Below, in pieces: positions 16,974-43,689 of a DNA stretch of 64,000 nucleotides. The DNA is from a virus: positions 17,362 to 81,361 of IMG/VR virus record IMGVR_UViG_3300020371_000005, one strand, 5' to 3'. The position numbers and the translations under genes were made by a program. The notes beneath the pieces are model-generated. The model made no database searches, had not been told where the DNA came from, and worked only from the letters and a program-made list of their open reading frames with translations. The stretch's first letter is position 1. Every line of letters begins with the position of its first letter.

Positions 16974-19900
16974 ATGGCACTAACTCGTCTTAAGAATATT
17001 ATCACGTCTAGGACGGGACGTATTATCTACGTCAACCCTGACGACTTCGATGCATCGGACGCATACGACAATAGAGGTAACTCGGCACTGCGTCCGTTCA
17101 AGACGTTGCAACGTGCCTTCCTTGAAGTGGCAAGGTTCTCCTATCGAGTTGGTCTGAGTAATGACGAATTCGATGCATTCTCCATTTACTTGTATCCTTC
17201 TGAGTATGTTCTAGATAATCGCCCTGGTACTTCTAACTTTAACGAGATTACTCCGTTTGACGAGAATACCAACTTTGATTTAACATCACCCAACAACATC
17301 TTATATAAGTTCAACTCTGTAAACGGTGGTATCATCTGCCCTAGAGGTGTTTCTGTTGTTGGTTCTGACCTTCGTCGTACGAAGATCATTCCTAAGTATG
17401 TGCCATATCCAACGATCAATGCATCGCTTGGTATCACATCTGCTAACGAACCTGGAACTTCTGCAATCTTCAGACTGACTGGTGGTTGTTATTTCTGGCA
17501 GATGTCATTCTTTGATGGTGACAACAATGGTGTTTACTATCGTCCTGACGTAACAGAGACGATTGCACCTAACTTCTCTCACCATAAGATCACTTGTTTC
17601 GAGTACGCTAACACAACTGATCTGGATCTTTATTACCAGAAGATCTCGAAAGCATACGCTACAATTCCTGATACCTCTGGTACGATTGCACAAGACCAGT
17701 TGCAAGCAAGGGTCGAAGAAAACAGAATCGTTGGTCCGATTTCCGACGAATTCCGTGTTTCTCAGATCATTAGAAACGGTCAAACTGCAACAGCATTTAC
17801 TGTTGATATTCAGGACAACCCAGTTAACCACGGTTTCTCTGTGGGTGTTGCTGTTAATATTTCTGGTGTTACTGGACCAACAGAAACCGACTCGAACCTG
17901 TATAATGGTTCTTTCCTTGTTACATCTGCACAGGGTAACCAGTTTACCTATCAGATGTCAGCAGAACCATCAGGTAACGCAATCGGTTCCAACGTTCTTG
18001 TGAAGGTTGAGATTGATACGGTTGACTCTGCATCACCTTATGTGTTTAACTGTTCATTGAGATCTGTTTGGGGTATCAATGGAATGCACGCCGATGGTGC
18101 TGAAGCAACTGGTTTCAAATCGATGGTTGTGGCACAGTTCACGGGTATCTCTCTCCAAAAAGATGACCGTGCTTTCGTGCTATATAACCCGTCAACAGGT
18201 AACTATGAAGCACAAGCGGCGGGATCTGGCGCACACATTAACGGTCTATGCAAATACCGTAAAGGATGGCGTCACGTTCATATCAAAGCATCCAACGACG
18301 CATTCATTCAGGTTGTGTCTGTGTTTGCTGTGGGATTTGGTGACCATTTCTTCAGTGATAGCGGTGGCGACCTTTCTATTACTAACAGTAACTCAAACTT
18401 CGGAAACACCTCCCTGCGATCCAAAGGATTTAAGTCAGCAGCGTTTACAAAGGATAAAGCAGGTCAGATAACACATATTATTCCACCTAAAGGAATCTCT
18501 GATGTTGCTGAGGTTTCTATTAACTGGGTGACATTTGATATTAACAAGATCCGTGCAGCAGCAGATCCTACAAAACTGTATCTGTACGGTTATACAAACG
18601 AGAACGCAAAACCCCCTAGTAAGATTCAGGGTTATACAATCGGTGCACGTAGAGATTCACCTACACTGCCTGATAAGATTAACGTTCTCTTGGTTGCATC
18701 TGGTGCAAACGCACCTACAACTCACACTGCAAAGATCGATCCCTCTGGTCCTACAGTGACGGGTACATCTCCTGGAGATGATGAATCCCCGATCAAGTAT
18801 GATCCTAACCAGTCTAACTGGTACTTGCAGGTTGACTCTGCAAACAATGACATTTATACTACTCTGATTGCGAACTCGCAGTATCAGAACCTGGGCTTTA
18901 CACCGACATCCTTCATCCGTCGTGTGCCTGATGCTCGTGACCTGAAGGACAGAATTTACCGTTTCCGCTACGTTCTTGACAAAGACGCATTCCCAATCCC
19001 CCGTGAACCCATTACTGGTTTCGTGGTGGAACCTAGATCTTCGGAGACGAACTCTCCTGCATATGATAAGACATACTACATCTACGAAGTAGAAACTTAT
19101 CAAGAGTTTGAGCGTGGTGTTGCTGATGGTATCTACTATCTGACATTCCTGAACGCATCGGTTTCTCCTGCAACGTCTAACTTCGACGACTTTGCATTCT
19201 CACAACAGACTGTTGACTTGTATCCTGCATTCGACAGAGACAACCCTGTTGCTGACCCTGGTCCTGCTATCTCTGTTGCAGATAATGATGTTCTGGGTCT
19301 GGTTAGAACAACTGATGGTGCAACTCCTACTCCTAATGAAGACACTAAACTGTCTATTACTAAGGAAACATCACAGTTCTTCCTGCTTGAGCAAGAGAAC
19401 AACCTTGGTTACAATACCACATCCAACACACTGAATAGTATTGTTGTTACTGCACGTTTGGGTGATGAGGAAGAAAGAAAGATTCCTTTGAAACTGAATG
19501 CAGACAACTCTGTTGCACCTATCCTCTGTGAATTGAGAAGATACTCGATTCTTAGAGCATCTGGTCACACGTTTGAGTATCTTGGTTTCGGTCCTGGTAA
19601 CTATTCAACTGCATTCCCATCTACTCAGGTGGAAGTGTTGTCACCAGCACAGGTTAGACTGTCACAGTCACTAAAAGAAGCAGCAGGTGTTGCATACTAC
19701 TCTGGTGTGAACTCTGATGGTGAACTGTTCGTTGGTAACCAGGTGATTAACCCTGTTACGGGTCAGATCACAAACGAAGATATTGCACAGTTGAATGTCT
19801 TGGGTGAAGAAGGTACAACTATTGAGACCTTCTCTGAGATCGTTCTTACCGACAAACTGACTGTTATCGGTGGTGCATCTAACCAGTTGGAATCTGTCTT

Positions 19901-20549
19901 CTCAGGTCCTGTTACTTTCCAGAAGCGTATTACTGCTCAGGAAAATATTCAGACTCTGAAACTTACTTACAGTAACGATGATGGTACTGTACTAAAGCAG
20001 ACGTTCCTAGCAGAAGATGATGGATCAGGTCAACCAGATATTGATTCGTCACTTGCATTTAATGATGGCGATATTATCTATAATATTGATTGGCAAGCAG
20101 GTGATTCACTTGGTTGGATCTATGAAACAGGAACTTGGTATCAGTTTGGTCTGACTGATACTGGTCCGATCACTTCACGTCGTTTCAGTGGTGTTACCAA
20201 CTATGGTATCGGTATGGCACCCGATGCTAACAACAGACTGAAAGTTAGTGGCAACACAATGTTCGATGGTAACATTGATGTGACTGGCACATATGGTGCC
20301 GCTGATAAATATAGACTGGCAACTGGTATTGCAAATGGCAATAACGGTGTCACTTACAATGGCAACGGATCTACATCGTCCTTTGCTATCTCCTCTGGAC
20401 ACACCTCCTACTCTGTGTTGGTGTTCCTTAATGGTGTTGCACAGATCCCTGGTGTTGATTATCAGGTTTCTGGTAACGCAGTTGACTTTAGTATTAGCAC
20501 TCCCCCTGCAACTGGTGACGTGATTCAGATCAGAGAACTCGTTATCTAA
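16974..20549 (+). CDS. large virion protein, probable tail fibre or baseplate fibre connector
   Basis: This 1191-residue protein starts MALTRLKNIITSRTGRIIYV. Residues 30-160 show RPFKTLQRAFLEVARFSY and GGIICPRGVSVVGSDLRRTK, the layout of pectate-lyase-like right-handed beta helices in phage fibres. The middle is strand-rich, and the C-terminus contains FDGNIDVTGTYGAADKYRLA and a final beta domain (VLVFLNGVAQIPGVDYQVSG), a common fibre end motif. It is syntenic with the large gp10-like/fibre proteins of cyanophages, but I cannot assign a T4 number. Late promoters lie both before it and across its stop codon. Confidence 0.6.
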   Translation: MALTRLKNIITSRTGRIIYVNPDDFDASDAYDNRGNSALRPFKTLQRAFLEVARFSYRVGLSNDEFDAFSIYLYPSEYVLDNRPGTSNFNEITPFDENTNFDLTSPNNILYKFNSVNGGIICPRGVSVVGSDLRRTKIIPKYVPYPTINASLGITSANEPGTSAIFRLTGGCYFWQMSFFDGDNNGVYYRPDVTETIAPNFSHHKITCFEYANTTDLDLYYQKISKAYATIPDTSGTIAQDQLQARVEENRIVGPISDEFRVSQIIRNGQTATAFTVDIQDNPVNHGFSVGVAVNISGVTGPTETDSNLYNGSFLVTSAQGNQFTYQMSAEPSGNAIGSNVLVKVEIDTVDSASPYVFNCSLRSVWGINGMHADGAEATGFKSMVVAQFTGISLQKDDRAFVLYNPSTGNYEAQAAGSGAHINGLCKYRKGWRHVHIKASNDAFIQVVSVFAVGFGDHFFSDSGGDLSITNSNSNFGNTSLRSKGFKSAAFTKDKAGQITHIIPPKGISDVAEVSINWVTFDINKIRAAADPTKLYLYGYTNENAKPPSKIQGYTIGARRDSPTLPDKINVLLVASGANAPTTHTAKIDPSGPTVTGTSPGDDESPIKYDPNQSNWYLQVDSANNDIYTTLIANSQYQNLGFTPTSFIRRVPDARDLKDRIYRFRYVLDKDAFPIPREPITGFVVEPRSSETNSPAYDKTYYIYEVETYQEFERGVADGIYYLTFLNASVSPATSNFDDFAFSQQTVDLYPAFDRDNPVADPGPAISVADNDVLGLVRTTDGATPTPNEDTKLSITKETSQFFLLEQENNLGYNTTSNTLNSIVVTARLGDEEERKIPLKLNADNSVAPILCELRRYSILRASGHTFEYLGFGPGNYSTAFPSTQVEVLSPAQVRLSQSLKEAAGVAYYSGVNSDGELFVGNQVINPVTGQITNEDIAQLNVLGEEGTTIETFSEIVLTDKLTVIGGASNQLESVFSGPVTFQKRITAQENIQTLKLTYSNDDGTVLKQTFLAEDDGSGQPDIDSSLAFNDGDIIYNIDWQAGDSLGWIYETGTWYQFGLTDTGPITSRRFSGVTNYGIGMAPDANNRLKVSGNTMFDGNIDVTGTYGAADKYRLATGIANGNNGVTYNGNGSTSSFAISSGHTSYSVLVFLNGVAQIPGVDYQVSGNAVDFSISTPPATGDVIQIRELVI

Positions 20550-20552
20550 ATA
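20546..20552 (+). promoter_or_regulatory. late promoter CTAAATA overlapping a stop codon
   Basis: The TAA stop of the upstream fibre gene (20547-20549) lies inside CTAAATA; the next start is 23 bases on. Confidence 0.55.
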
Positions 20553-20574
20553 CTATTGTAGAGACTAGGTTCCT

Positions 20575-21429
20575 ATGGCAACCAAGATTAACGGTAATCA
20601 GATACAAGCGACCACCAGAGGTTTGGTGGAAGCGTGGCAGATTACTGAACAACTTAACCTTCCTTCGCTAAACCAATCACAGGTCAATGCTCTTGGCACT
20701 CCTGCGTTTGGTACGGTTGTGTATAACTCAACCGAGGATATGGCGCAGATCTATAAACAGGATGCCAACCAAGGTAACCCTGGATGGAGTGACGTTGGTG
20801 GAGGTGGTCCTGCGATTGGTGATAAGTCAATCATCAGAACGAACGGTACAACTATTGCCGAAAACCTGACGATTGGTGCTACATTCAACGGTGGTGTTGA
20901 ATTTACTAACGGTTTCTCCGCTGGTCCGATTGAGATTGCGTCTGGATATACACTCACCATTGAGAATGGTGCATCCTGGATGATTATGGGTGACGACGAT
21001 CTGTCGTTCGCTGAGTTTGTTGATATTGAATCACAGCACGCTACGTTTACTGGAACTCTACACTTCAGTGAAACGAAAGAGAGCATTTATTATTATATGA
21101 CGAGTGGGTCAGTTACCCACGATTTTAATAACGGTAACACGATCTGGATTAACAAAACTGGTGGTGGTAACTTCACACTTACCCTAAACAATGTGCCTAC
21201 TGATGGTGCACACGGTTATGGTATCACTGTGGTTATGAAGAGTGAAGGTGGTAGTGGTATTCCTACTGGACTTACTATTAACGGACAATCCACAAGTATT
21301 TTCTGGTCTGGTGGTAACGTTCCTGGTATGGATGGTACATATTGTATCATCTCTTTTGCTATGGTTTATATCTCTAACCCCAACCAGCAAGCATTCTCTG
21401 TCTTCGGTTCCGCTGTTAATTATTCCTGA
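20575..21429 (+). CDS. tail fibre-type virion protein (284 aa)
   Basis: Begins MATKINGNQIQATTRGLVEA, a fibre-type N-terminus, then a short helix and a beta-structured shaft with GFSAGPIEIASGYTLTIENG (the G-x-x-I-x-x-G-x-T-x-x-I-x-x-G pattern of fibre shafts). The C-terminal half is a compact beta domain with NGNTIWINKTGGGNFTLTLN. Its place directly before the glycine-rich gp38-like protein fits a fibre whose tip is capped by that adhesin. Confidence 0.55.
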   Translation: MATKINGNQIQATTRGLVEAWQITEQLNLPSLNQSQVNALGTPAFGTVVYNSTEDMAQIYKQDANQGNPGWSDVGGGGPAIGDKSIIRTNGTTIAENLTIGATFNGGVEFTNGFSAGPIEIASGYTLTIENGASWMIMGDDDLSFAEFVDIESQHATFTGTLHFSETKESIYYYMTSGSVTHDFNNGNTIWINKTGGGNFTLTLNNVPTDGAHGYGITVVMKSEGGSGIPTGLTINGQSTSIFWSGGNVPGMDGTYCIISFAMVYISNPNQQAFSVFGSAVNYS

Positions 21430-21431
21430 TT

Positions 21432-22421
21432 ATGTCCACTCAAATCGGTTTTTCTGGAAACTTCAATCCTCTATCATCTTCAATGTGTTCCCGTGGTGGT
21501 GGAGCAGGTGGTGGCGGTGGTGTTCCTAAAATTACAGCAGATAATAACGGTACAGTTTTTAATACACAACACCCTAGTAACGGTAAACAACTGAAGTGCC
21601 ATAGATTTACTGGTACTGGTGATAATAGTTTGTACATCCGTGATGGTGCTGGTGGTAGCATTTACGTTTGGATGTGGGGTGCTGCTGGTGGTAGAGGTGG
21701 TCAGGGTGGTAACTCTGGCGGTTCTGGTGGTATGTCATATTCTGAGATTGAAGTACAAGAATCCTGGATCAATGCTGGCGGTAGAATGAGAATCTACGTC
21801 GGTGGTGGCGGTGGTGGAGGAAATGGTTGCTACGGTTGCTGGGGCGGCGGTGGTAATGGTACCAATGGATCTGGATATGGTTCTGGTGGTCGTGGAACTC
21901 ACGCTTCTTGCAGAGGTTGCTCAGCAGGTGGTGGTGGAGGTGGAGCAGCAACGATGCTGTTCTCCCCTATGGGTGTCAATATGAATCAAGGCAACATTCT
22001 CCAAGTCGCTGGAGGCGGCGGAGGAGGTGGAGGTCGCGAAGGTTGTGGTGGTGCTGGTAGAGGCGGTGCAGGCGGTCAACGTGGTGAGAATGGACAGTGC
22101 GGATCCCAAGGTGGTGGCGCTGGACAGAATGGTGATACCAATGGTGATGAGTGCGGAAGACCTGGTAACGACGCTTCAGGCGGCGGTGGAGGCGGTGGAG
22201 GTTACAATGCAGGAAACTGTGGTGGTAACCCTGGTTGCGATTGTAATGGTGCTGCTGGAGGTGGTGGAGGTAACAGTTGGGCATCAAGTCCATACACCAT
22301 AGATAGTTCTATATCTAATGGTAACTACACAACACCTGGAGACTCAGCAAATAGTTTCCGTAATGGCGCTGCTCAAAATGATGGTGGCAGTGGCATTTGT
22401 ACCATATGCTATGAAGAGTAA
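21432..22421 (+). CDS. glycine-rich putative receptor-binding adhesin (gp38-like)
   Basis: This 329-residue protein has a beta-rich N-terminus and, from about residue 75, a very glycine-rich region with runs such as RIYVGGGGGGGNG, SAGGGGGGAATMLFSP and VAGGGGGGGGREG separated by short variable segments. This is the layout of the distal adhesin gp38 of T2/S16-type phages, in which polyglycine-II helices form a sandwich displaying variable loops. Unusually it contains about fourteen cysteines (CYGCW, CRGC, GCDCNG, CTICYEE), far more than the phage average. It probably decides host range. It starts directly after the previous fibre gene and overlaps the next start. Confidence 0.65.
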   Translation: MSTQIGFSGNFNPLSSSMCSRGGGAGGGGGVPKITADNNGTVFNTQHPSNGKQLKCHRFTGTGDNSLYIRDGAGGSIYVWMWGAAGGRGGQGGNSGGSGGMSYSEIEVQESWINAGGRMRIYVGGGGGGGNGCYGCWGGGGNGTNGSGYGSGGRGTHASCRGCSAGGGGGGAATMLFSPMGVNMNQGNILQVAGGGGGGGGREGCGGAGRGGAGGQRGENGQCGSQGGGAGQNGDTNGDECGRPGNDASGGGGGGGGYNAGNCGGNPGCDCNGAAGGGGGNSWASSPYTIDSSISNGNYTTPGDSANSFRNGAAQNDGGSGICTICYEE

Positions 22422-22990: not shown

Positions 22991-23791
22991 ATGAGTACAC
23001 TCAAAGTTGCATCTATTAGAGACCTGTCTGGTATTGGTGGTTTTACCCTTGCATCGGGTAACATTACTGCGAACGGTACGCTCACCGTTAGTAATTTAAC
23101 GGTCAACGGCACAATGTCTGGTTCCTCTGGTCAGATTGTACCGAGTGTCTCAGGACAGGCAGGCAAATTCCTCACAACTGATGGTTCCAATATGTCTTGG
23201 ACATCTGTGAGTTCAGAGAACATCAGTTCTATGCAAGTCTGGACAGGTAATGGTACCTGGAACAGACCATCTGGTGTTAAGTATATCCACGTTCGCCTAA
23301 ATGGTGGCGGAGGCGGTGGTGCTGGTCACGGCGAATCTGGCGGTGCTGGTGGTTACGCTGAGCGCGTTATGTCTGTTGCTAACATCTCGTCGGTGGGTAT
23401 TTCCATCGGTGGTGGTGGCGGTGGAACCTGGTATTTCAACCGAGGTGGTGATGGTGGATCCACATCCTTCGGTCCTTATATGTCTGCGGGTGGTGGTCAC
23501 GGTGCTGCTCGTAACAACTCTCACTCTGGTGGTCTCGGCAGACAGGGTTCTGGCGGTGACCTGAACATCTGGGGTGGTGGCGGTCAGTCTCACGCTGCTC
23601 ACGGCGGTGGAACTGGTGGTCCTTCTCACTTCGGTGGATCTGTGGCAGCAGGTTGGCCCAATGGTGGCAACTTCTCCCACAATCACCAAGACCACGCTGC
23701 ATTTGGTGCAGGCGGTTCTGGTGGTCACTTCTCTTCTTTCCGTGGATCTAACGGCAAGTATGGTGTCGTTACTGTCATCAACTACAAGTAA
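22991..23791 (+). CDS. second glycine-rich adhesin-like fibre tip protein
   Basis: This 266-residue protein starts MSTLKVASIRDLSGIGGFTL, a fibre-attachment N-terminus, then a short shaft (ANGTLTVSNLTVNGTMSG) and a tip with W-x-x-NGTWNRPSGVKYIHVRL. The last 160 residues are Gly/His/Ser-rich (NGGGGGGAGHGESGGAGGYA, GGGGQSHAAHGGGTGG). The TWNRPSGV...V-x-x-x-GGGGGG pattern is widespread in phage fibre ends. It is poor in cysteine but rich in histidine, unlike the first adhesin. Own late promoter. Confidence 0.6.
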   Translation: MSTLKVASIRDLSGIGGFTLASGNITANGTLTVSNLTVNGTMSGSSGQIVPSVSGQAGKFLTTDGSNMSWTSVSSENISSMQVWTGNGTWNRPSGVKYIHVRLNGGGGGGAGHGESGGAGGYAERVMSVANISSVGISIGGGGGGTWYFNRGGDGGSTSFGPYMSAGGGHGAARNNSHSGGLGRQGSGGDLNIWGGGGQSHAAHGGGTGGPSHFGGSVAAGWPNGGNFSHNHQDHAAFGAGGSGGHFSSFRGSNGKYGVVTVINYK

Positions 23792-23804
23792 TTAAGGGGA
23801 AGCA

Positions 23805-24329
23805 ATGAAGAAAGCACTTATGGATTTTACAGGCGGTGTCGCTGACATCGTTGAACCTGGCGAAGAGTATCCTCTGTTCTTGGGACGTGGATGTGCTCAG
23901 ATGTGGGTGAATGCACCCGACAACATCACTAAAGTTTGGACTCTTGAATGGTCACCTTCTGCTGAAGATATGATCTGGGTTGAGCGTACTGAAACTTACG
24001 CTGATCCTGCTACCACTCGTAGAGTTGCATATGGTGAAGTTGGTCAGCAACTGGATCTTCTCTATAAAGATCTTGCTGCTGGTAGAGACCTTGCAGGTGC
24101 TGATGCACTGTGGTTTAATCACATTAAGACAGTCAAAGAAAATACAGTTCGCCCTTCTGACGTTGAGGAACCAATGGATCCTACAATGACTGAGGAAGAG
24201 GTTGCTGAATTTATGTCTGATGCTGTTGAACCAAGCACAGATCGTCCTATGAAGATCTCCACTCCTGAGAATCCTTGCTGGGAAAGATACAGCAACTGGG
24301 GACGTACTTACGAGGAACTTCCTGAGTGA
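23805..24329 (+). CDS. fibre-associated/hypothetical protein (174 aa)
   Basis: Starts MKKALMDFTGGVADIVEPGE after AAGGGGAAG. Contains TRRVAYGEVGQQLDLLYKDL and LWFNHIKTVKENTVRPS, a Y-G-x-x-x-x-QLD-x-x-YKD...W-x-x-HI-x-x-VK pattern I know from small tail-fibre-linked proteins of many phages. The rest is acidic and polar. Likely fibre assembly or a fibre-associated subunit; not certain. Confidence 0.5.
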   Translation: MKKALMDFTGGVADIVEPGEEYPLFLGRGCAQMWVNAPDNITKVWTLEWSPSAEDMIWVERTETYADPATTRRVAYGEVGQQLDLLYKDLAAGRDLAGADALWFNHIKTVKENTVRPSDVEEPMDPTMTEEEVAEFMSDAVEPSTDRPMKISTPENPCWERYSNWGRTYEELPE

Positions 24330-24333
24330 TAAA

Positions 24334-24349
24334 ATAGCACTTGTGCTAT
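24334..24349 (+). promoter_or_regulatory. perfect inverted repeat ATAGCAC-TT-GTGCTAT before the halogenase
   Basis: Seven-base perfect arms with a two-base centre, followed by TATACTATATAAAG, lie between the fibre block and the halogenase (ATG 24375). No T-run follows, so an operator or promoter-overlapping protein site fits better than a terminator. TATACT (24347-24352) could be its -10. Confidence 0.4.
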
Positions 24350-24374
24350 ACTATATAAAGAAAGTGATTAAGTT

Positions 24375-26066
24375 ATGCAGGTAAACAATGTAGTTATTGT
24401 TGGCGGCGGGTCGTCTGGATGGATGACCGCCGCTGCTTTGTTGAAATTATGCCCTTGGATCAACGTTGTATTGGTTGAGAGTGCCAAACATCCAACTGTG
24501 GGTGTTGGTGAATCTACTCTTGGTCACTTCAATAAGTATTTGAAAGCACTGGGTCTTCGTGACGAAGATTGGATGGCAGCGTGTAATGCCACCTATAAGA
24601 ATAGTATCCAGTTCACTAATTTTAGAGATAATAACGATTCTGTCTTCCAGTATCCTTTTGGTGTCTATGATTATCATCTAGACACAATGGAAGTCGGAAT
24701 TGGTGGTGGAAATATAGAAGATTTCTTTGACATTCAAGCAAGTATTGGTGCAGGAGAAGATTTGTATGAGTCTCCTGATGGATTTGCAACGTACTACAAT
24801 GCAGAGAATACTCTCCTAGCAACGCATAATAAACAGACAGACAATAAGGATGGTAAGTTCCGTAACTTTGATCCTGCTGTTGATGTAGCATATCATCTGG
24901 ATGCTGAAAAGTTTGGACAGTGGTTGAGAGTAAATGTCTGCGAACCTTGGAAGCAAGTTGATCGCTTCACTCACATTATTGGTGATGTGCGTGGTATGGT
25001 GAAAGATGTGACTGCTGGTGGTTCACCTGCTCAGTCTAATCGTATTATCAAACAACTTGCAGTTAGACTAGACGAATCTAAGAAGACTATTGGTGTGGTT
25101 GGTGATCTGTTCATTGACTGTACTGGTTTCAAGGGTGCATTGATCGAAGGATTGATGAATGTTCGCCATATTAGTTTCGAGAAAGTTCTTCCTAACAACA
25201 AAGCATATTTTGCACGGATTCCCTATGAGGATCAGAAGTTCCGTGAGATTGCAATGCACAACACAACTGATTGTGAGGGTGCAGAGAATGGTTGGATGTG
25301 GACTATTCCACTGTGGGATCGTATTGGTGTAGGATATTGTTGGTCAGATAGATTTGCTATGCCCAGTGAGGCAAAGCAAGAGTTTGAGATGTGGATTGAA
25401 CGTAAATTCAACATCGAACCAGATGCATATGAGATCAAGGAAGTTGACATCAAGCACGGTTATCGTGAGAAGGCGTGGGAACTGAACTGTCTTGCAATCG
25501 GTCTGTCTTATGGTTTCGTTGAACCACTGGAATCTACTGGTCTGCTGACTACACACGAGAACATTCTTCGTCTGGTTGATGTCTTGAAGCGCCGTAAAGG
25601 ATATATTACCAATTTGGAAAGATCGTGGTATAATTATCAGGCACAGCGTGAAGTGATCGGTTTCAGTAAGTTTGTGGCAATGCATTATGCACTGTCTATG
25701 CGTACTGATAACCCCTATTGGCGTCACGCCACACAACGCTGTGATTATATGGAAGAGAACTTTGATGGTAACGTCAAAGTGAATGATAACTATGAGCGTA
25801 TGGGTGACATTCTGGACAACAACTGTCCACTTGCTGCCAATATGCTTGGTATGAATTATATTGCTGCTGGTATGGGTCTGCGCCTTGGTACTAGGTTTAG
25901 TTACCACGATATGGACCTAGATACTTTGGCAATTAAGAAACAGGATAGAGAAGAGTACATTGCATATGTACACAACGAAGTTCACAAACTTCCTTCTCAT
26001 TACCAGTATCTACTTGACAACATTTATGGAGGAGTTGATGAAATTCGGGATTCCCTGGAAGCGTAA
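24375..26066 (+). CDS. FAD-dependent tryptophan halogenase family protein
   Basis: This 563-residue protein has every landmark of flavin-dependent tryptophan halogenases (PrnA/RebH family): the FAD-binding VVIVGGGSSGWMTAAAL (residues 6-22), GVGES (43-47), the catalytic lysine in NATYKNSIQF (K75), the halogenase-specific W-x-W-x-I-P as GWMWTIPLWDR (W307, W309), and FVEPLESTG with E386 at the substrate site. Length matches the family. It would use FADH2, chloride or bromide and O2 to halogenate tryptophan, a peptide residue or another indole. No flavin reductase is visible nearby, so the host would supply FADH2. It overlaps the next gene by 29 bases and heads the oxidative cassette. Confidence 0.9.
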   Translation: MQVNNVVIVGGGSSGWMTAAALLKLCPWINVVLVESAKHPTVGVGESTLGHFNKYLKALGLRDEDWMAACNATYKNSIQFTNFRDNNDSVFQYPFGVYDYHLDTMEVGIGGGNIEDFFDIQASIGAGEDLYESPDGFATYYNAENTLLATHNKQTDNKDGKFRNFDPAVDVAYHLDAEKFGQWLRVNVCEPWKQVDRFTHIIGDVRGMVKDVTAGGSPAQSNRIIKQLAVRLDESKKTIGVVGDLFIDCTGFKGALIEGLMNVRHISFEKVLPNNKAYFARIPYEDQKFREIAMHNTTDCEGAENGWMWTIPLWDRIGVGYCWSDRFAMPSEAKQEFEMWIERKFNIEPDAYEIKEVDIKHGYREKAWELNCLAIGLSYGFVEPLESTGLLTTHENILRLVDVLKRRKGYITNLERSWYNYQAQREVIGFSKFVAMHYALSMRTDNPYWRHATQRCDYMEENFDGNVKVNDNYERMGDILDNNCPLAANMLGMNYIAAGMGLRLGTRFSYHDMDLDTLAIKKQDREEYIAYVHNEVHKLPSHYQYLLDNIYGGVDEIRDSLEA

Positions 26067-26823
26067 GAAACCGTGGTTGCGGTTCTTCTCACTCGAACCA
26101 GGACTTGCTGAGAATTATCCACTAATACCCACATCATCTATTAAGAGGACGTGGCAGGATAAGGAGCACAAAGAATCACGATGCCCATTTATGGGCACAC
26201 AGAATGTTGCTAACTGTCCTGGTTTGAAACAAATCACTAGGATGGGTTATGTTGTTACTGCTCCTATGGACTTTACTATCATCACTAATGGTGATGGAGT
26301 ATCTTACGAGTGGGAAACACCAGCAACATTCGCAAGGCATAGTAACTACATCGGGGATCACTCTCCTGATCAGGTTGTACCACTGGTTGATAATCCTCGG
26401 GATTGTTTGGCACATATTATCAAACTAGAGACACCTTGGCGTGTTCGTGCTAGTGATGATCTTGTGTTTATGCAACTTCCTGTTTATTGGAATAATGAGT
26501 CAAGATTTGAAGCAGTTGCTGGGATCTATGATCCTAGATTTGCAATGCAGGTGAATGTGCAACTGCTATGGTATGTTATGGATGGTCATACGTTGGTCAA
26601 GGCAGGTACACCCCTAGCACAGTTTGTACCTGTTCCAAGATCATCTATCGAGAAAACTTGGTACGATATGACTATAGATAATGCAACCCAAGAAGATTGG
26701 GATCTTGAAGCAGCGTTCAACTATAGTCTCAGAGCAGAATACTCGACAGAAGACACAGTTAATGCTAAGATCAAGCGTGCTATGCGTGCTATTAACTATC
26801 ACAGCAATGGAAAAACCCGATGA
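26038..26823 (+). CDS. DUF6065-like protein, copy 1
   Basis: ATG 26038 with GGAGGAG at 26029-26035 is preferred over an upstream start, giving 261 residues. It begins MKFGIPWKRKKPWLRFFSLE, then RTWQDKEHKESRCPF, a middle with VTAPMDFTIITNG, and ends in VQLLWYVMDGHTLVKAGTPL followed by AQFVPVPRSSIE. This beta-rich pattern with a late G-x-P-x-x-x-F-x-P-x-P resembles the uncharacterised DUF6065 family, which occurs near oxygenases in bacteria and phages. Its paralogue lies at 28239-28928. Overlaps the halogenase end. The family assignment is from memory of the pattern. Confidence 0.5.
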   Translation: MKFGIPWKRKKPWLRFFSLEPGLAENYPLIPTSSIKRTWQDKEHKESRCPFMGTQNVANCPGLKQITRMGYVVTAPMDFTIITNGDGVSYEWETPATFARHSNYIGDHSPDQVVPLVDNPRDCLAHIIKLETPWRVRASDDLVFMQLPVYWNNESRFEAVAGIYDPRFAMQVNVQLLWYVMDGHTLVKAGTPLAQFVPVPRSSIEKTWYDMTIDNATQEDWDLEAAFNYSLRAEYSTEDTVNAKIKRAMRAINYHSNGKTR

Positions 26824-27167
26824 CTATTGACGAACTGATTCAGAACTTTCACCTCCAGAAGGAGGCAGTGCAAGAACTTATCAAGAAATATGATAAGGAC
26901 TTCTCTAACAAGAAACTTAATCCATATGGTGTGACAACTATTGAGTTCCAACAACGTAGTGATGCGTTTGCTCAACAGTCTCGCCTTGAAGGTGCTATTG
27001 ATGCACTGTATATTGTGAAACGTGATATTATGGGTGAGGAAGGTGATGTTCCTATTCCTAGCGCAGCACTAGATATTGCTGAGCAGGATATGGAAATGGA
27101 AATTGTTGGTCAGACCAGCAACGCCGAAACACTTGATGATGACATCCCAGGTGACCCAAGTTACTAA
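26820..27167 (+). CDS. hypothetical helical protein (115 aa)
   Basis: Starts MTIDELIQNFHLQKEAVQEL in an ATGA overlap. Two long helices (to about residue 70) are followed by an acidic disordered tail (DIAEQDMEMEIVG, DDDIPGDPSY). No enzyme motif seen. Its place inside the cassette may indicate a scaffold or carrier role, but that is inference. Confidence 0.45.
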   Translation: MTIDELIQNFHLQKEAVQELIKKYDKDFSNKKLNPYGVTTIEFQQRSDAFAQQSRLEGAIDALYIVKRDIMGEEGDVPIPSAALDIAEQDMEMEIVGQTSNAETLDDDIPGDPSY

Positions 27168-27741
27168 ACCACATCAGTTTCATCCAAACTATCTTTGGAA
27201 GACACAGTATGATTTTAACTATGAAGGTAGTCCCCTTCAGACACATTGTGGTCAACTGTTAGATCATACTGGTAGGTCCTCAGTATTAGAAACTGGCAAC
27301 GCATTTTCAACAGCAGGTAATCTTCAGCAGTCTCCACATCATTGGGAGATACTTGAAGATTTTCTTGTCTGGATGCAAGCACAGATTATTCCTATCTGGG
27401 ATCACTGGAATTATTTCCCGTGTATGCCTCAACCATTTAATTCGTGGGTGAATCTACACAAGAGAGGAGGAGAAACACTAGAGCACTATCACTCACCCTG
27501 TCCACTTGTGGTGTCGTGCTATTTGAAGTGTCCTCCTAATTCTGGTAACTTTCTTGTCAGAGATCCGTTTGAGTATCATCTCTTCGGTACACCATCTGAA
27601 CCACAAGAAAAACTATGGACAGAAATACCAGTACAAACAAACGACATCCTAATCTTCCCTGGTTGGTTGAAACATAAGACACAACCAAATGAGACTGACG
27701 AAGACCGAATTGTTCTCACTCTAAATTATGAAGGTAATTAA
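27139..27741 (+). CDS. 2OG-Fe(II) oxygenase superfamily protein (TIGR02466/PF13759-like)
   Basis: This 200-residue protein (ATG at 27136 or 27139) contains FNSWVNLHKRGGETLEHYHS with H116-Y-H118 in the place of the usual H-x-H/D, SCYLKCPPNSGNFLVRDP, and a distal ILIFPGWLKHKTQPN (H179), followed by RIVLTLNYE with the 2OG-binding arginine. This matches the putative 2OG-Fe(II) oxygenase family common in marine phages. The substrate is unknown. It begins the run of adjacent oxygenase genes. Confidence 0.75.
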   Translation: MTSQVTQVTKPHQFHPNYLWKTQYDFNYEGSPLQTHCGQLLDHTGRSSVLETGNAFSTAGNLQQSPHHWEILEDFLVWMQAQIIPIWDHWNYFPCMPQPFNSWVNLHKRGGETLEHYHSPCPLVVSCYLKCPPNSGNFLVRDPFEYHLFGTPSEPQEKLWTEIPVQTNDILIFPGWLKHKTQPNETDEDRIVLTLNYEGN

Positions 27742-28249
27742 AAATGTTATCTCTCCGCTGTATGCGGACAAGATTGAAGAACTGATGAGTGATGTACAAT
27801 TTCAGTGGGGATTTCTGAAAGATGTAACTTACGTCGATCAGGCAGCATTTGGTGCTAATCGTGGAACCCCAGGATTTGCACATTTATTCTTCGACGCACA
27901 AAATGGTCATCAGTCTGACCATTGTAATTTTATCCTCCCTCTGTTCTATACACTCTGTGGTGATGGATTCCACGAGTTAATAAGGATTAAGGGAGGATTG
28001 CTTTTACCAACGCAAGAAGGATATAATAATAAACACGTGGATTTTGACTTTCCACACACGACAGCATTGTATTATGTTAATGATTCAGACGGCGACACGC
28101 TCTTCTTCAATGACAATTTGGAGATTGTTGATCGAGTTAAACCAGAGAAAGGAAAACTAATTATTTTTGATGGTTCTATTTTACACGCATCGTCCTGTCC
28201 TACCTCCCACACAAATAGAATTGTGATAAATTTCAATTATGTCAAGTAA
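27728..28249 (+). CDS. 2OG-Fe(II) oxygenase
   Basis: This 173-residue protein starts MKVIKNVISPLYADKIEEL. Iron ligands are H103 and D105 in NNKHVDFDFPHTTALYYVND and H153 in FDGSILHASSCP. The arginine of TNRIVINFNY binds 2-oxoglutarate. Short P4H-like fold, compact for the family. Overlaps both neighbours. Confidence 0.8.
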   Translation: MKVIKNVISPLYADKIEELMSDVQFQWGFLKDVTYVDQAAFGANRGTPGFAHLFFDAQNGHQSDHCNFILPLFYTLCGDGFHELIRIKGGLLLPTQEGYNNKHVDFDFPHTTALYYVNDSDGDTLFFNDNLEIVDRVKPEKGKLIIFDGSILHASSCPTSHTNRIVINFNYVK

Positions 28250-28928
28250 GATTTTCTACTACCAATATGAAGGTGCTCGTGATCCAATCACGATGCTAGA
28301 TTCTCCTCTTGATATAGAAGGAGTGGGTCTTGAACCAAGAAAAGAGATCGACAATCACTCTCCAAAGGATACACCGTTCTACGATTGTCCTGCGTGGAGT
28401 CATCGTGCTAAGCGAGAGTTTGTAGTTTATGCACCTCGTGACATCACACTGCACGTTAATAACGAAACAGGAGAACTTCACGCACCAAATATTTCACAGG
28501 AAGATTTTGAGAGATGGGTGAACGTACAAGATGCAACGTTGCCTATCACCACAATTCAGATTCCTGTCCCTATGTTTCTATTCTGGACAGAGAGTAAGAA
28601 TATTTGGATTGAACAGATTGACCATCCAAGGACAGCATCACATAATAATTTCACACTGGTGACAGGATGGTTTAATCTCTCTTCTTGGTGTCGTCCTATC
28701 TCTCTAGGTGTGCGTCTGGTTGATGACAAGAAACCCATCATAATTAAACGTGGTGATCCACTATATAAGATCAGGTTTATGAAGGAAGGGAACTTCAACA
28801 AAACTTTCGAGTTGGTGAAGTCACGACCTGAACCTGAAATTATGTTGGATGTTCACAAACGTGTCAAAGCGAAAAAGATCATTCCATATCTTTCCGACAA
28901 ACTTATCTTTGGGTGCCCATTCAAATGA
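28239..28928 (+). CDS. DUF6065-like protein, copy 2
   Basis: This 229-residue protein resembles copy 1 in order of elements: a Cys/Pro/Trp site (FYDCPAWSHRAKREFVVYAP), a beta core (ITTIQIPVPMFLFWTESKNI), GWFNLSSWCRPISLGVRL, and a late IIIKRGDPLYKIRFM corresponding to G-x-P in copy 1. No metal site is obvious. It sits between two 2OG oxygenases with overlaps on both sides, so it probably works with them. Function unknown. Confidence 0.45.
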   Translation: MSSKIFYYQYEGARDPITMLDSPLDIEGVGLEPRKEIDNHSPKDTPFYDCPAWSHRAKREFVVYAPRDITLHVNNETGELHAPNISQEDFERWVNVQDATLPITTIQIPVPMFLFWTESKNIWIEQIDHPRTASHNNFTLVTGWFNLSSWCRPISLGVRLVDDKKPIIIKRGDPLYKIRFMKEGNFNKTFELVKSRPEPEIMLDVHKRVKAKKIIPYLSDKLIFGCPFK

Positions 28929-29575
28929 ATAATTACGCTGAAGAGTTTGTTCCCACAACGGTGATCGATAATTTCTTTGAGACACCATCACTCGTGAGAG
29001 CATTTGCTCAACAACAAGAATACTTTCTCTGCACAGATCACCCTCGTGGTGGTAATTGGCCAGGGAAAAGATGTAACCTGTTAAATGAGATCGATCCAGT
29101 CTTTCACGAGATTGTGTGTAAGAAACTGGTGAGGTATCTTCCACATCATCAAGCATTTGAGATCGCAGATATGACATTTCATATGTGTGATGAACCAAAC
29201 TCTCCTGGGTGGATCCACACTGACCCACCACATTTGGGAATCGGTGCTGTTATCTATTTGAATCAAGGTATTAGACCAGGCACAGGAACTTGTCTGTATG
29301 ATGTACCGCCTGGGTTCAATGGTCAGGGATATGAAGAAGAGTTCCAACAACAACTTGCTCTTCAGGGTACACCTGAGGCAGCAAAGTTCGAGAAGTATAA
29401 AGAAGATTGTAATGGTGTATTTCGACCGTCAGTGACTGTTGAGGCACGCTATAATCGTTGTATACTATTTGATGGACGTAAATACCACGGAGGTATGAAC
29501 TTCTTTGGTAATGACGTTTCTGATGCTAGACTAACACTTGTATTCTTTGGGAGGGGTATTTTAATTGGACCTTGA
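28925..29575 (+). CDS. DUF6445-type 2OG-Fe(II) oxygenase-like protein
   Basis: ATG 28925 overlaps the previous stop (AAATGA); 216 residues. GWIHTDPPHLGIGAVIYLN supplies H98 and D100, a GTGTCLYDV turn follows, and ILFDGRKYHGGMNFFG gives the distal H188 before RLTLVFFG with the arginine. The W-x-H-x-D...A-x-x-YLN...GTG-x-x-x-Y pattern is that of the DUF6445 branch of the superfamily. All iron ligands are present, so it is likely active. Confidence 0.7.
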   Translation: MNNYAEEFVPTTVIDNFFETPSLVRAFAQQQEYFLCTDHPRGGNWPGKRCNLLNEIDPVFHEIVCKKLVRYLPHHQAFEIADMTFHMCDEPNSPGWIHTDPPHLGIGAVIYLNQGIRPGTGTCLYDVPPGFNGQGYEEEFQQQLALQGTPEAAKFEKYKEDCNGVFRPSVTVEARYNRCILFDGRKYHGGMNFFGNDVSDARLTLVFFGRGILIGP

Positions 29576-30200
29576 AACACTTGCTGATAATAAACTGTAC
29601 CTGATTAAAGGTGCACTCAGTACAGATCTCTGTGAGTATCTGAAGACTGAGTTTATGATGATTAAGGACATCATTGAGGCAAACCCGATGGGTCCAACCA
29701 GTGATCCTATTATGCCTGGGGCATTTGCAATGTATTCACCTATTTGTTTTGAAGCGATGGGTGATAAGATCAAACCACAGATTGAGGAAGTGCTCGATGC
29801 AGAACTATGGCAAACCTTTTCCTACGCGAGGGTGTACGTTAAGGGTACCAATCTTGTACGACATCGTGATAGAACCTCAGGAGAATGGGTCGGTAATGTT
29901 TGCATCACTCGTGATGATACCGATTGGCCCTTCTATATTGAGATCGATGGAAAGTCGCATCAAATTGTCCTCAATCAAGGCGATTTATTGATATTCAGGG
30001 GACACAAAGATTTCCACTGGAGACCAAAATATCAGGGAGATCTTCAAATCCAAGCATTTGTCTCTTATGTTGACAAAAATGGCAAATATAGTAAGAATAA
30101 GTGGGATGGTCGCCCTGGTCTTGCTTATCCTTGGGAAACTGCATCCGAAGAGATACAGTATGAACAGTCGATGATTAACTCTTCACCTTATTACACCTGA
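29565..30200 (+). CDS. 2OG-Fe(II) oxygenase-like protein, TTG start
   Basis: TTG 29565 follows GGGAGGGG at good spacing, so a non-ATG start is accepted (211 residues). YARVYVKGTNLVRHRDRTSG gives H100 and D102, IVLNQGDLLIFRGHKDFHWR gives the distal H151, and the fold ends LQIQAFVSYVD. A C-terminal tail (SKNKWDGRPGLAYPW) extends past the usual fold. Similar to oxygenases annotated widely in cyanophages. Substrate unknown. Confidence 0.7.
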   Translation: MDLETLADNKLYLIKGALSTDLCEYLKTEFMMIKDIIEANPMGPTSDPIMPGAFAMYSPICFEAMGDKIKPQIEEVLDAELWQTFSYARVYVKGTNLVRHRDRTSGEWVGNVCITRDDTDWPFYIEIDGKSHQIVLNQGDLLIFRGHKDFHWRPKYQGDLQIQAFVSYVDKNGKYSKNKWDGRPGLAYPWETASEEIQYEQSMINSSPYYT

Positions 30201-30358
30201 TGAATTTTGACTCTGAAGAACTGAAGTATCTGCTCACAGTATTGGGCAGAACATCATCTTTCACCCGTGCTAGAGGTGAACAAATCGATCACCCAACAAT
30301 TAAACATCAACTCATTGAACGTAAAGTTCAAGATCAACTGAGACGTTTGCATCAATGA
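30200..30358 (+). CDS. small hypothetical protein (52 aa)
   Basis: Starts MNFDSEELKYLLTVLGRTSS immediately at the previous stop (TGATG) and ends in an ATGA overlap with the next oxygenase gene. Helical and basic at the C-terminus (IERKVQDQLRRLHQ). Tight coupling on both sides supports a real gene. No function recognised. Confidence 0.55.
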   Translation: MNFDSEELKYLLTVLGRTSSFTRARGEQIDHPTIKHQLIERKVQDQLRRLHQ

Positions 30359-30978
30359 AACTAACAATCGAAAATCCATTCGATACATTCTATAAGAAGG
30401 CAAAAGATGTCATCGTGTTTGATGATATTATTCCTGAGGTATACCAAAATTGGTTGATAGATTGTATCAAGAATGAAGACCTGATGTGGCACCGTAAGGA
30501 TGCTGCAATCAGTGATATGTTTGAGGATGATCCTCGCAATGGATTCTGCAACTTTCACTATCTCTTTGATAAGGATGAGGGTGGAGAGTTGAGTCCATTG
30601 TGTAATGCGTTTATGCCACTGGCATTACAGTTTAGAGAGAAACTTCAGGCAGAATGTTTGTTTCGTATGCGTGTGAATTGTGTGCCTGCTTGGCACTCTA
30701 ATCAAGTACAACTTCCACACGTTGATTCGTATCATTTTGAAGCGTGGAATGTTATCTACTACATTGATGACAGTAATGGTGATACGATCATCTATGATGA
30801 ACGTACGAGAGATCATCAAGAATACTTGAAGATTGCAACGAGAGATATGTACACAGTTAAGACAGCAGTATCACCCAAGAAAGGACGTGCTGTTGCTATT
30901 AAAGGTGATCTCTTTCACGCTTCTACATTGCCAATGGGAACTTGGAGACCAGTGTTAAATATGGTAGTACATTCTTGA
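30355..30978 (+). CDS. 2OG-Fe(II) oxygenase
   Basis: This 207-residue protein carries VQLPHVDSYHFEAWNVIYYI (H122, D124), DDSNGDTIIYDE, and AVAIKGDLFHAST (H188) with RPVLNMVVH supplying the 2OG arginine. Closest in layout to the gene at 27728, suggesting paralogy within the cassette. ATGA-coupled to the preceding small gene. Confidence 0.8.
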   Translation: MKLTIENPFDTFYKKAKDVIVFDDIIPEVYQNWLIDCIKNEDLMWHRKDAAISDMFEDDPRNGFCNFHYLFDKDEGGELSPLCNAFMPLALQFREKLQAECLFRMRVNCVPAWHSNQVQLPHVDSYHFEAWNVIYYIDDSNGDTIIYDERTRDHQEYLKIATRDMYTVKTAVSPKKGRAVAIKGDLFHASTLPMGTWRPVLNMVVHS

Positions 30979-30980
30979 TT

Positions 30981-31655
30981 ATGGATAAAGTCTATAAGGT
31001 ATATGATGGTGACGCTCACTGTTTGTGGAGGTCACCTGTTGTTGTAAATGAACAAGATGAGATGATTGCACAACTTGGTCGTGCACATCGTCATTTCAAG
31101 AATACTTTCACTGGGTTCGATTCTTCTCTCACTGGTAATGAATTGACTCTTGGTGCTCTACCTAACTTGTTCTCTCAACAGGAACAACGAGAGGATGACA
31201 AAGTATTTCTAGATGGTGAGAAGGATTTCAGTGGTTATAGGTTCTATAATATATTTGCACTGACAGCACCATCACCACTATTTTGGCAACTATATCGTGA
31301 CATTCAGACTGTGGTTCGCACAACACTTGCACACGATGAACCACTGTATATGCAATGTTGGATGAATTATCATACTCCTGACAAGGTATTGAAGTGGCAC
31401 GATCATAAGTTTCCATACCACGGTTATGTGAGTATTGATCCCAAGAATACCACCACTAAGTTTAGAAACGGTGAGGATCCTGTCCTCTATGAGATCAATA
31501 ACGAAGTGGGAAACATATATTTTGGTGCTGCCCCAGGCAGGTATCACAAAGTATTCGTAAACGATGACTTCGGGGGTAGACGAATTACCCTTGGATTTGA
31601 TATAGTAGAGACGCCTGATCTTCCTGACGATCAGTTCTCACTAATCCCTATCTAA
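30981..31655 (+). CDS. 2OG-Fe(II) oxygenase-like protein
   Basis: ATG 30981, two bases after the upstream stop; 224 residues. The core reads KWHDHKFPYHGYVSIDP with H140-D141-H142 at the iron site (spacing allows H-x-H rather than H-x-D), NEVGNIYFGAAPGRYHKVFV with the distal H189, and GRRITLGFD with the arginine. More divergent than its neighbours but the double-stranded beta-helix order is intact. Last gene of the cassette; a late promoter overlaps its stop codon. Confidence 0.6.
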   Translation: MDKVYKVYDGDAHCLWRSPVVVNEQDEMIAQLGRAHRHFKNTFTGFDSSLTGNELTLGALPNLFSQQEQREDDKVFLDGEKDFSGYRFYNIFALTAPSPLFWQLYRDIQTVVRTTLAHDEPLYMQCWMNYHTPDKVLKWHDHKFPYHGYVSIDPKNTTTKFRNGEDPVLYEINNEVGNIYFGAAPGRYHKVFVNDDFGGRRITLGFDIVETPDLPDDQFSLIPI

Positions 31656-40382: not shown

Positions 40383-41027
40383 ATGCCTAACTTATCGGAC
40401 AATTTTGAGTCGATTGCAACAACTAACGTCTACGGCGTGTTTCTAACACCTATTGGCGTATATCGTAATCCAGACCATAAAGAACATAAACAAATAATTC
40501 TTGACTATATTCGGTCAATGAATCCCGAAGATGTGAACGTCTCGCCCCGTTCAGATATTAACACTGGTATCAAGCAATTAGGCGGGATGAATATACTAAT
40601 GACCCCAGAGTTAGCACCAATCAGAGAGACCATCTCTAAGGCGATTCTAGAGGTCAATGACGGAGGATTAGCATACGATATGAAACAACCAGTCCTCACA
40701 GATTCTGTTCTTGAGTTAGCAGATAAGGGATCATTCTACGCGCCCCACGAATACTCCAACACCGTCTATAGTGGCGTCTATTATGTTAATTTTGACCACG
40801 ATCAACATAGTCAACTAAAGTGGAAAAGATGCATCGGTTCGCCTTTCTATCCGATCGTACAAATGCCACAAACTAAGATCACTCCTTTCAATCAGTTAGA
40901 TACACAAATTCCCACAGAAGAGGGAGACATTGTTATCTTCCCCTCTAATCTTTCCCACGGGTATGAATCAAACACTCACGGGAATAGAATTACTTTGTCC
41001 TTTAATGTTGCCCCTTGGTCAGAATGA
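40383..41027 (+). CDS. 2OG-Fe(II) oxygenase (TIGR02466/PF13759-like)
   Basis: This 214-residue protein starts MPNLSDNFESIATTNVYGVF, the usual opening of this family (LFPTPI-like GVFLTPIGVYR). Metal ligands are H122 in YAPHEYSNTVYSGVYYV (H-E-Y replaces the usual H-x-H) and H192 in IVIFPSNLSHGYESN, with GNRITLSFNVAPW carrying the 2OG arginine. Stands apart from the main cassette, next to an HNH endonuclease whose start overlaps its stop. Confidence 0.75.
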   Translation: MPNLSDNFESIATTNVYGVFLTPIGVYRNPDHKEHKQIILDYIRSMNPEDVNVSPRSDINTGIKQLGGMNILMTPELAPIRETISKAILEVNDGGLAYDMKQPVLTDSVLELADKGSFYAPHEYSNTVYSGVYYVNFDHDQHSQLKWKRCIGSPFYPIVQMPQTKITPFNQLDTQIPTEEGDIVIFPSNLSHGYESNTHGNRITLSFNVAPWSE

Positions 41028-42988: not shown

Positions 42989-43169
42989 GTGGGAGATCTC
43001 TCTCACTGATGAGGAGCGTAAACTTATCTGCAACTCAGGTAAGTGGGCTCTTATCTACAAGGCAGATGTTTGTGGTGGCAAGGAGTTAGAGAAAGTACAA
43101 GCATTATGGCGTTCTATTCGTGAAAAACTAGGAGAGTATGATGACAGTCCCTTCGTTGGAGGTAATTGA
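42963..43169 (+). CDS. small hypothetical protein (68 aa)
   Basis: ATG 42963 preferred (upstream in-frame ATG 42915 would overlap the previous gene more). Starts MKKASATSKWEISLTDEERK; helical with REKLGEYDDSPFVGG at the end. Overlaps the next oxygenase start by 32 bases. Confidence 0.45.
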   Translation: MKKASATSKWEISLTDEERKLICNSGKWALIYKADVCGGKELEKVQALWRSIREKLGEYDDSPFVGGN

Positions 43170-43689
43170 CAATTTCTTGCCTGAAGATTTGTTCTACAAG
43201 ATGCAAGAACAGATCTGTGGAGATCAATGTTTTCCTTGGTATCTGAATCACGCGAAGGTGATGCACGTTGCTCGTGCATTTGATCCAGAACTACAAGCGA
43301 AGGAATTATACAACTGGCAAATGGTGCATAAGTTCTATGAGTTAGGTAGACCACAATCCCAGGAGTGGGAATACATCTTACCTCTCATTAACTACTTGCG
43401 ACCTCGTGCCTTAATACGGATCAAAGCAAATTTGAACCATCACACAGATAGTATGATAGAGTATGACTATCACACAGACTGTGGAGAGTATGGTATGAAC
43501 GACTTTGAGGGGGCAACCACTGCGGTGTTCTATCTGAATACCTGCGATGGTTATACCTTCTTCAAGGACGGTACGAAGGTGAACTCGGTAGAGAACCGAC
43601 TTGTTCGTTTCCCTGTTGATACACCACACGCTGGCACATCTACAACTGACCAGAAGTTTCGTTTTGTCCTAAATTTGAATTATTTCTGA
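43138..43689 (+). CDS. 2OG-Fe(II) oxygenase
   Basis: This 183-residue protein follows GGAGAG and starts MMTVPSLEVIDNFLPEDLFY. Ligands H112 and D114 in IEYDYHTDCGEYG, H164 in FPVDTPHAGTST, and the arginine of KFRFVLNLNYF are all present. The TAVFYLNTCDGYTFFKDG strand pair matches the oxygenases at 27728 and 30355, suggesting a common ancestor. Substrate unknown. Confidence 0.8.
   Translation: MMTVPSLEVIDNFLPEDLFYKMQEQICGDQCFPWYLNHAKVMHVARAFDPELQAKELYNWQMVHKFYELGRPQSQEWEYILPLINYLRPRALIRIKANLNHHTDSMIEYDYHTDCGEYGMNDFEGATTAVFYLNTCDGYTFFKDGTKVNSVENRLVRFPVDTPHAGTSTTDQKFRFVLNLNYF

Follow-up and report, generated by a model that had tools for sequence, protein, structure and literature searches.

The closest characterized relative of the enzyme considered here is VirX1, the flavin-dependent halogenase of cyanophage Syn10, whose open active site accommodates large substrates and which, in vitro, accepts a wide range of small heteroaromatics for halogenation (PMC8407142); in the literature searched, it was studied as an isolated biocatalyst. 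For the halogenases and 2-oxoglutarate (2OG) oxygenases of cyanophages, the roles proposed in earlier papers are protection from antibiotics, repair of DNA and signalling through 2OG (PMC2984593, PMC3037559, PMC9964418). In cyanophage Pam3, a glycine-rich adhesin resembling gp38 of S16 depends for folding on a chaperone, which covers the distal loops of the adhesin in a complex of 3:3 stoichiometry and is no longer present in the mature virion (PMC9608196). Here, we analyzed a window of 64,000 nucleotides (positions 17,362 to 81,361) of the 81,361-base IMG/VR virus record IMGVR_UViG_3300020371_000005, in which a VirX1 homologue (HAL) heads a ten-gene array at 24375-31655, behind two genes, F0 and F5, whose layout is like that of the adhesin and its chaperone in Pam3. 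From the genomic evidence below, we consider it slightly better than an even chance (about 0.55) that the enzymes of this cassette modify the phage's own tail-tip adhesin F0, or the tail of F5, during assembly.

The array consists of ten same-strand genes in the order HAL, U1, SM, OX1, OX2, U2, OX3, OX4, OX5 and OX6, i.e., one VirX1-type flavin halogenase, two dUTPase-fold proteins (U1 and U2), six 2OG-oxygenase-like proteins (OX1-OX6) and one small protein (SM). Adjacent genes mostly overlap by 4-32 nt, with the exception of a 154-nt gap between OX4 and OX5 (30201-30354) and of 2 nt ahead of the probable OX6 start. A first-pass annotation, made from the sequence alone, had described a coupled gene run at this position headed by a flavin halogenase and containing six 2OG-oxygenase-like proteins, and in these respects it was correct; SM was left uncounted, and the continuation of the unit upstream, into F5 and then F0, was missed. 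The baseplate, hub and tail-fibre genes group the window with the T4-like cyanophages S-SZBM1, P-RSM6, S-WAM1 and P-TIM40.

F0 and F5 accompanied the cassette in more than 100 related contigs of viral origin, and the order F0-F5-HAL-U1-SM-oxygenases recurred in loci retrieved separately by HAL, F5 and U1. Within the 77 viral loci found by HAL, F5 was the preceding gene in 57, and in 16 this place was taken by a 2OG oxygenase, mostly lying between F5 and HAL; the following gene was U1 in 54, while 11 contigs ended at this point and another family followed in 11. HAL was located directly downstream of F5 in 69 of the 73 F5 loci, with one oxygenase between them in the other four, and directly upstream of U1 in 80/80 loci retrieved with a divergent U1 query. 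These sets do not represent three independent samples, since some contigs are common to the searches. F0 preceded 90 of 91 unique HAL-linked F5 genes. Both F0 of the HAL-linked type and F5 adjoining HAL were present in 20 named phage records, the two sets being matched on counts by phage and host rather than accession by accession.

Among named phages, the arrangement was observed in syn9, S-CREM1, P-TIM40, S-RIM44, Sf-FR1, Sf-FP1, S-WAM1, P-RSM6 and S-SZBM1, which vary in oxygenase number and in downstream neighbours (neck genes in S-RIM44, a helicase in P-TIM40, unrelated small genes in syn9), with U1 missing from S-WAM1, P-RSM6 and S-SZBM1. In the syn9 locus, closely related to that of VirX1, the halogenase too sits behind F5 and ahead of U1 and 2OG oxygenases; lytic isolates carrying the cassette are syn9, Syn10, S-CREM1 and S-SZBM1. 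Very large T4-like contigs, of up to 354 kb, contain a reduced form with three copies of F0 followed by F5, an unknown gene, an oxygenase and HAL. Halogenase genes elsewhere in S-H35, S-MbCM6, S-SSM7 and S-H38 have a different context and were not counted as F0/F5-linked cassettes. In four loci (L069, at 5004-5567, L133, L135 and L136), a 2OG oxygenase either preceded the copies of F0 or separated F5 from HAL.

A different ancestry was observed on either side of a breakpoint between the tail fibre and F0. The tail fibre (16974-20549) is 84% identical to that of S-SZBM1, and gp5 and gp6 of the window are closest to the S-SZBM1/P-RSM6 group. In contrast to the tail fibre, F0 (59%), HAL (45%), U1 (46%) and F5 (46-48%) are closest to syn9/Syn10/S-CREM1, which indicates that F0-F5-HAL-U1 was exchanged as a unit and, given the position of the breakpoint, that F0 moved with the enzymes. 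Since the F0 and F5 genes stay and recombine with the cassette, the tail-tip proteins (F0 and/or F5) are its probable target. A glycine- and cysteine-rich 329-aa protein without Pfam match is encoded between the tail fibre and F0 (21432-22421).

The sequence of F5 itself also differed with the presence of HAL directly downstream. When followed by HAL, F5 carried an extension of at least 26 residues containing tryptophan in 87/87 unique sequences, whereas without HAL downstream it ended at most 8 residues past the core in 36/38 cases and had a tail tryptophan in 1/38. The motif P-[ACS]-W-x-R-Y-x-x-W of this extension retained W in 84/84 sequences, P in 74, R in 70, Y in 67 and the second W in 70; 27 F5 proteins had failed the first core-marking pattern, and nine of them were added to this count. 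In the window's own F5 clade, P, W, E, R, S, W and G are fixed and codons vary; as judged from these alignments, the motif is under amino-acid constraint. Some divergent F5 proteins keep the tryptophan, but not the full motif. The tail follows adjacency to HAL rather than the mere presence of a halogenase, since F5 is short in S-H35 and S-RIM4, which have a halogenase gene or fragment elsewhere in the genome. Further, in a tree of F5 cores, the groups with and without HAL form the two sides of one branch (99/85), pointing to one origin of the tail and the halogenase link. Two observations concern exceptional records: S-RIM4 (MK493321) contains at 23698-24666 a shortened 387-aa frame that matches halogenases in two separate parts and lacks the middle, and the only HAL-less F5 with tryptophan, located in a 28-aa tail, is that of ACG-2014j (6986-7294 of locus L178), where 2OG oxygenases are found among the F5 neighbours and the record has no PF04820 match.

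F0 is annotated as gp38 in syn9 and Syn33. The HAL-linked adhesins contain strongly conserved loops rich in His, Asn, Gln and Pro, such as F-[AS]-H-N-H-Q, in contrast to glycine-rich adhesins described before, whose tips were reported to be hypervariable (PMC9608196). Amino acid composition was rejected as a halogenation signature, as tryptophan is not enriched in HAL-linked F0 (1.0% vs. 1.7%).

Table 1. Coordinates of the F0-F5 pair and the enzyme cassette in the window
Feature	Position	Strand	Basis
F0, glycine-rich tail-tip adhesin (gp38-like), candidate substrate	22991..23791	+	PF21722 Gly_rich_2, phrog_863 'tail fiber assembly'
F5, small tail-tip-associated protein with C-terminal extension	23805..24329	+	phrog_1787 (core)
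F5 C-terminal extension	24138..24326	+	absent from 36/38 F5 homologues without adjacent halogenase
F5 tail motif P-C-W-E-R-Y-S-N-W, candidate docking site or substrate	24273..24299	+	alignment
HAL, flavin-dependent halogenase, VirX1 homologue	24375..26066	+	PF04820, E 6e-82
U1, dUTPase-fold partner protein	26038..26823	+	phrog_7084; remote DUF6065-like
SM, small conserved 115-aa protein, K-L-N-P-Y-G-x-T motif	26820..27167	+	conservation in cassettes
OX1, 2OG-FeII_Oxy_5 oxygenase	27136..27741	+	PF13759; HxH...H...R conserved
OX2, 2OG-FeII_Oxy_3, prolyl-hydroxylase-like	27728..28249	+	PF13640; HxD...H...R
U2, second dUTPase-fold protein	28239..28928	+	phrog_17480; minority of cassettes
OX3, DUF6445 family	28913..29575	+	PF20043; HxD...H...R
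OX4, 2OG-oxygenase-like	29565..30200	+	phrog_2954; HxD...H
OX5, 2OG-oxygenase-like	30355..30978	+	phrog_274; HxD...H...R
OX6, 2OG-oxygenase-like	30981..31655 (start inferred; open frame from 30942)	+	phrog_2696; HxH...H...R

The enzymes of the cassette look functional, since their catalytic ligands are nearly invariant in alignments of 30-117 non-redundant homologues per family. Besides its PF04820 match, HAL is homologous over its full length to VirX1, its best solved relative (PDB 6QGM, E 1.8e-135), and shares its active-site motifs. The GxGxxG flavin motif (GGGSSGW), catalytic lysine (K75), WxWxIP motif (WMWTIP, 307-312) and catalytic glutamate in EPLES (383-387) expected of flavin-dependent (tryptophan) halogenases are intact; among homologues the flavin motif is kept, K75 is present in 93/101, and WxW and EPLE in 101/101. 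Halogenases of the PrnA/RebH type, which act on free tryptophan, have C-terminal residues gripping the amino acid portion of this substrate. The phmmer alignments of HAL with PrnA, RebH and Thal end at residues 451-464 of 563, whereas that with VirX1 reaches residue 554. In many sister cassettes, one or two extra halogenase genes, divergent from the cassette HAL, lie just downstream on the opposite strand (for instance 19864-21417, minus strand, in locus L021, and the same place in L032, L035, L047, L077 and others).

Of the six oxygenases, OX1, OX2 and OX3 passed the Pfam cut-off, and OX4-OX6 were recognized from PHROG families and conserved metal-ligand patterns only. The metal triad and basic residue that define the 2OG-Fe(II) superfamily were present in OX1, OX2, OX3, OX5 and OX6: HxD...H...R in 99/99 homologues for the OX2/OX5 family, the HxH...H...R ligands in 113-116 of 117 for OX1, the ligands of OX3 in 57-59 of 63, and H153/H155/H202/R214 in 30/30 for OX6. 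OX4 shows its HxD...H metal pattern in 31/31 homologues, with no basic 2OG-binding residue identified. JmjC_2/Cupin_8 proteins are additional members of sister cassettes; hydroxylases of ribosomal proteins belong to this family. Although OX2, OX3, OX4 and OX5 (27728-30978) are 2OG-type proteins with HxD...H ligands, their PHROG families bear the names 'DNA endonuclease V', 'minor coat protein' and 'ferrochelatase', which recur as product names in phage records and are likely a propagated misannotation. Outside the cassette, the window encodes two more 2OG oxygenases, at 40383-41027 and 43138-43689 (PF13759 and, below the cut-off, PF13640-like).

The first-pass annotation had also called U1 and U2 a DUF6065-like pair partnering the oxygenases, which was only partly sustained. 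No DUF6065 (PF19541) match was found anywhere in the record, and neither protein reaches the Pfam cut-off. In pairwise profile comparisons, U1 showed a remote likeness to DUF6065 (P 5e-5), unlike seven control families, and to U2 (9e-4); similarity of U2 to DUF6065 was not detectable (0.079). Nor were DUF6065 genes found near bacterial halogenases within 16-kb regions of five genomes. By position, the halogenase has its close partner in U1 rather than in the oxygenases, and U2 occurs in a minority of cassettes only. The structural model of U1 (predicted local distance difference test, pLDDT, 86.6) matched dUTPases in the PDB (E 1e-4, probability 1.0), as did the weaker model of U2 (pLDDT 72.1), with template modelling scores of 0.3-0.7. 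Judged by eye, their conserved columns include a G-x-x-D-P-R-Y-like stretch and no P-R-S-G motif; as the full set of five catalytic dUTPase motifs is not evident, both may be repurposed binding proteins. SapC was rejected as a relative of U1 and U2, no similarity being found.

The first-pass annotation had named gene order broken up in all relatives and destroyed active sites in homologues as outcomes that would speak against a coupled unit, and had suggested comparative genomics as a check. Neither outcome was found, since halogenase, U1 and oxygenases co-occur, co-ordered, in many viruses and the catalytic motifs are conserved. On this evidence, the array is a real, conserved and apparently functional cassette within a tail-tip module.

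In the mechanism we propose, the cassette would be the enzymatic half of this module, with F0 as glycine-rich adhesin and F5, from its position, as its probable chaperone or assembly partner. Around the time of tail-fibre assembly, HAL, its partner U1 and perhaps SM would halogenate and hydroxylate tail-tip residues jointly with 2OG oxygenases, the set of which varies, and the tryptophan motif at the end of F5 would serve as a docking handle bringing the enzymes to the F5-bound adhesin or be itself the halogenated site. A tip modified in this manner would change how the phage adheres to the host surface or escapes from it. That the phage both halogenates and multiply hydroxylates its receptor-binding tail tip, with the F5 tail recruiting or receiving the modification, is a more tentative proposal, somewhat short of an even chance. 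Action on the F0-F5 complex is proposed because of the Pam3-like gene layout and the composition of S-SZBM1 virions, in which the tail fibre and several of its neighbours were detected (PMC9146016).

Several points weigh against tail-tip modification. F0, F5 and the cassette proteins were not among the virion proteins detected in S-SZBM1 (PMC9146016, Table 1), a list that agrees with a discarded F5 and with enzymes but does not show F0 in the virion, where it may have been missed, be absent or be hidden by modification. Sequence searches of F5 against the PDB gave no match to a solved chaperone, and the in vitro substrates of VirX1 are small aromatics. Independent co-variation of the F5 tail and the halogenase had to be rejected, their association being a single event on the tree. 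No paper proposing a link between such a cassette and an adhesin, or this phage trait, was found in the literature searched.

The substrates of VirX1 would agree with auxiliary metabolism, in which a halogenated, hydroxylated small molecule is made from tryptophan, indole or host metabolites, for example for host protection. Protection of the host from antibiotics was suggested earlier for cyanophage prnA (PMC2984593, PMC9964418), and for a different halogenase cluster, in the jumbo cyanophages S-SSM6a/S-SSM7, a secondary metabolite was the predicted product (PMC7824862). This cluster resembles our cassette in combining a phage halogenase with 2OG and cupin-like enzymes; however, its halogenase is divergent (27.6%), and it does sit among sugar and carbamoyltransferase genes, not F0/F5. 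We regard a small-molecule product as unlikely for the present cassette, which holds no scaffold-building, export or resistance gene and whose HAL aligns with free-tryptophan halogenases over a shorter span than with VirX1; moreover, the fixed F0-F5 linkage, the joint exchange and the F5 tail would have no explanation. Accordingly, from the targets listed in the first-pass annotation, a virion protein (F0 and/or F5) is favoured by linkage, host tryptophan and indoles are possible but leave the adhesin linkage unaccounted for, and no support was found for DNA bases; free tryptophan, host indoles and DNA are thus less supported.

Tail-fibre regions are often exchanged, and the breakpoint between tail fibre and F0 would also be expected if the enzymes were hitch-hiking at a recombination hotspot and acted elsewhere, e.g., on host surface glycans or another virion protein. 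This we find doubtful, as very divergent T4-like viruses, some of them on contigs above 300 kb, retain the F0-F5-halogenase-oxygenase grouping, and the halogenase-linked F5 has a constrained extra tail. A role of the 2OG oxygenases in DNA repair, or in lowering 2OG to steer host nitrogen regulation, with an unrelated halogenase, was put forward for cyanophage 2OG oxygenases generally (PMC3037559, PMC2984593). It is very improbable here: those proposals rest on genes beside uvsX/uvsY or on general 2OG turnover, not on this locus, and the cassette borders on tail genes, not on genes for repair, with several distinct oxygenase families retained in a set order. A defence function was also rejected, PADLOC having returned weak 2OG matches only.

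Outside cyanophages, marine bacterial loci of the Shewanella type (TonB receptor, halogenase, SapC, Cupin_8/JmjC, halogenase, DUF6445) resemble the cassette in having a halogenase with DUF6445 and an adjoining surface-protein gene, and share JmjC/cupin proteins with sister phage cassettes; they differ in that U1, U2, SM, F5, F0, OX4 and OX6 were not found in the 80 loci searched. Tailoring clusters with peptide halogenases also exist for ribosomally synthesized and post-translationally modified peptides, and F5, a small and substrate-like protein that ends in a conserved aromatic motif and is encoded ahead of a halogenase and oxygenases, is reminiscent of them. In contrast to such clusters, the core of F5 is that of a phage protein family associated with tails, and the ten genes include no leader peptidase, cyclase or exporter. 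Giant viruses encode collagen/prolyl hydroxylases, 2OG enzymes acting on viral structural proteins, although, to our knowledge, no halogenase and no adhesin-linked cassette accompany them.

The reason for the presence of halogenases and of numerous 2OG oxygenases in marine T4-like phages has been a matter of speculation since 2007-2010, also after the characterization of VirX1; modification of the tail tip offers a concrete and testable answer. Should it hold, abundant marine phages would rely on post-translational chemistry to recognize their hosts, and host range could not be read from the adhesin sequence alone. Halogenated proteins, and halogenases directed at proteins, could then be sourced from phage virions, and host recognition would be chemically diversified beyond the genetic code.

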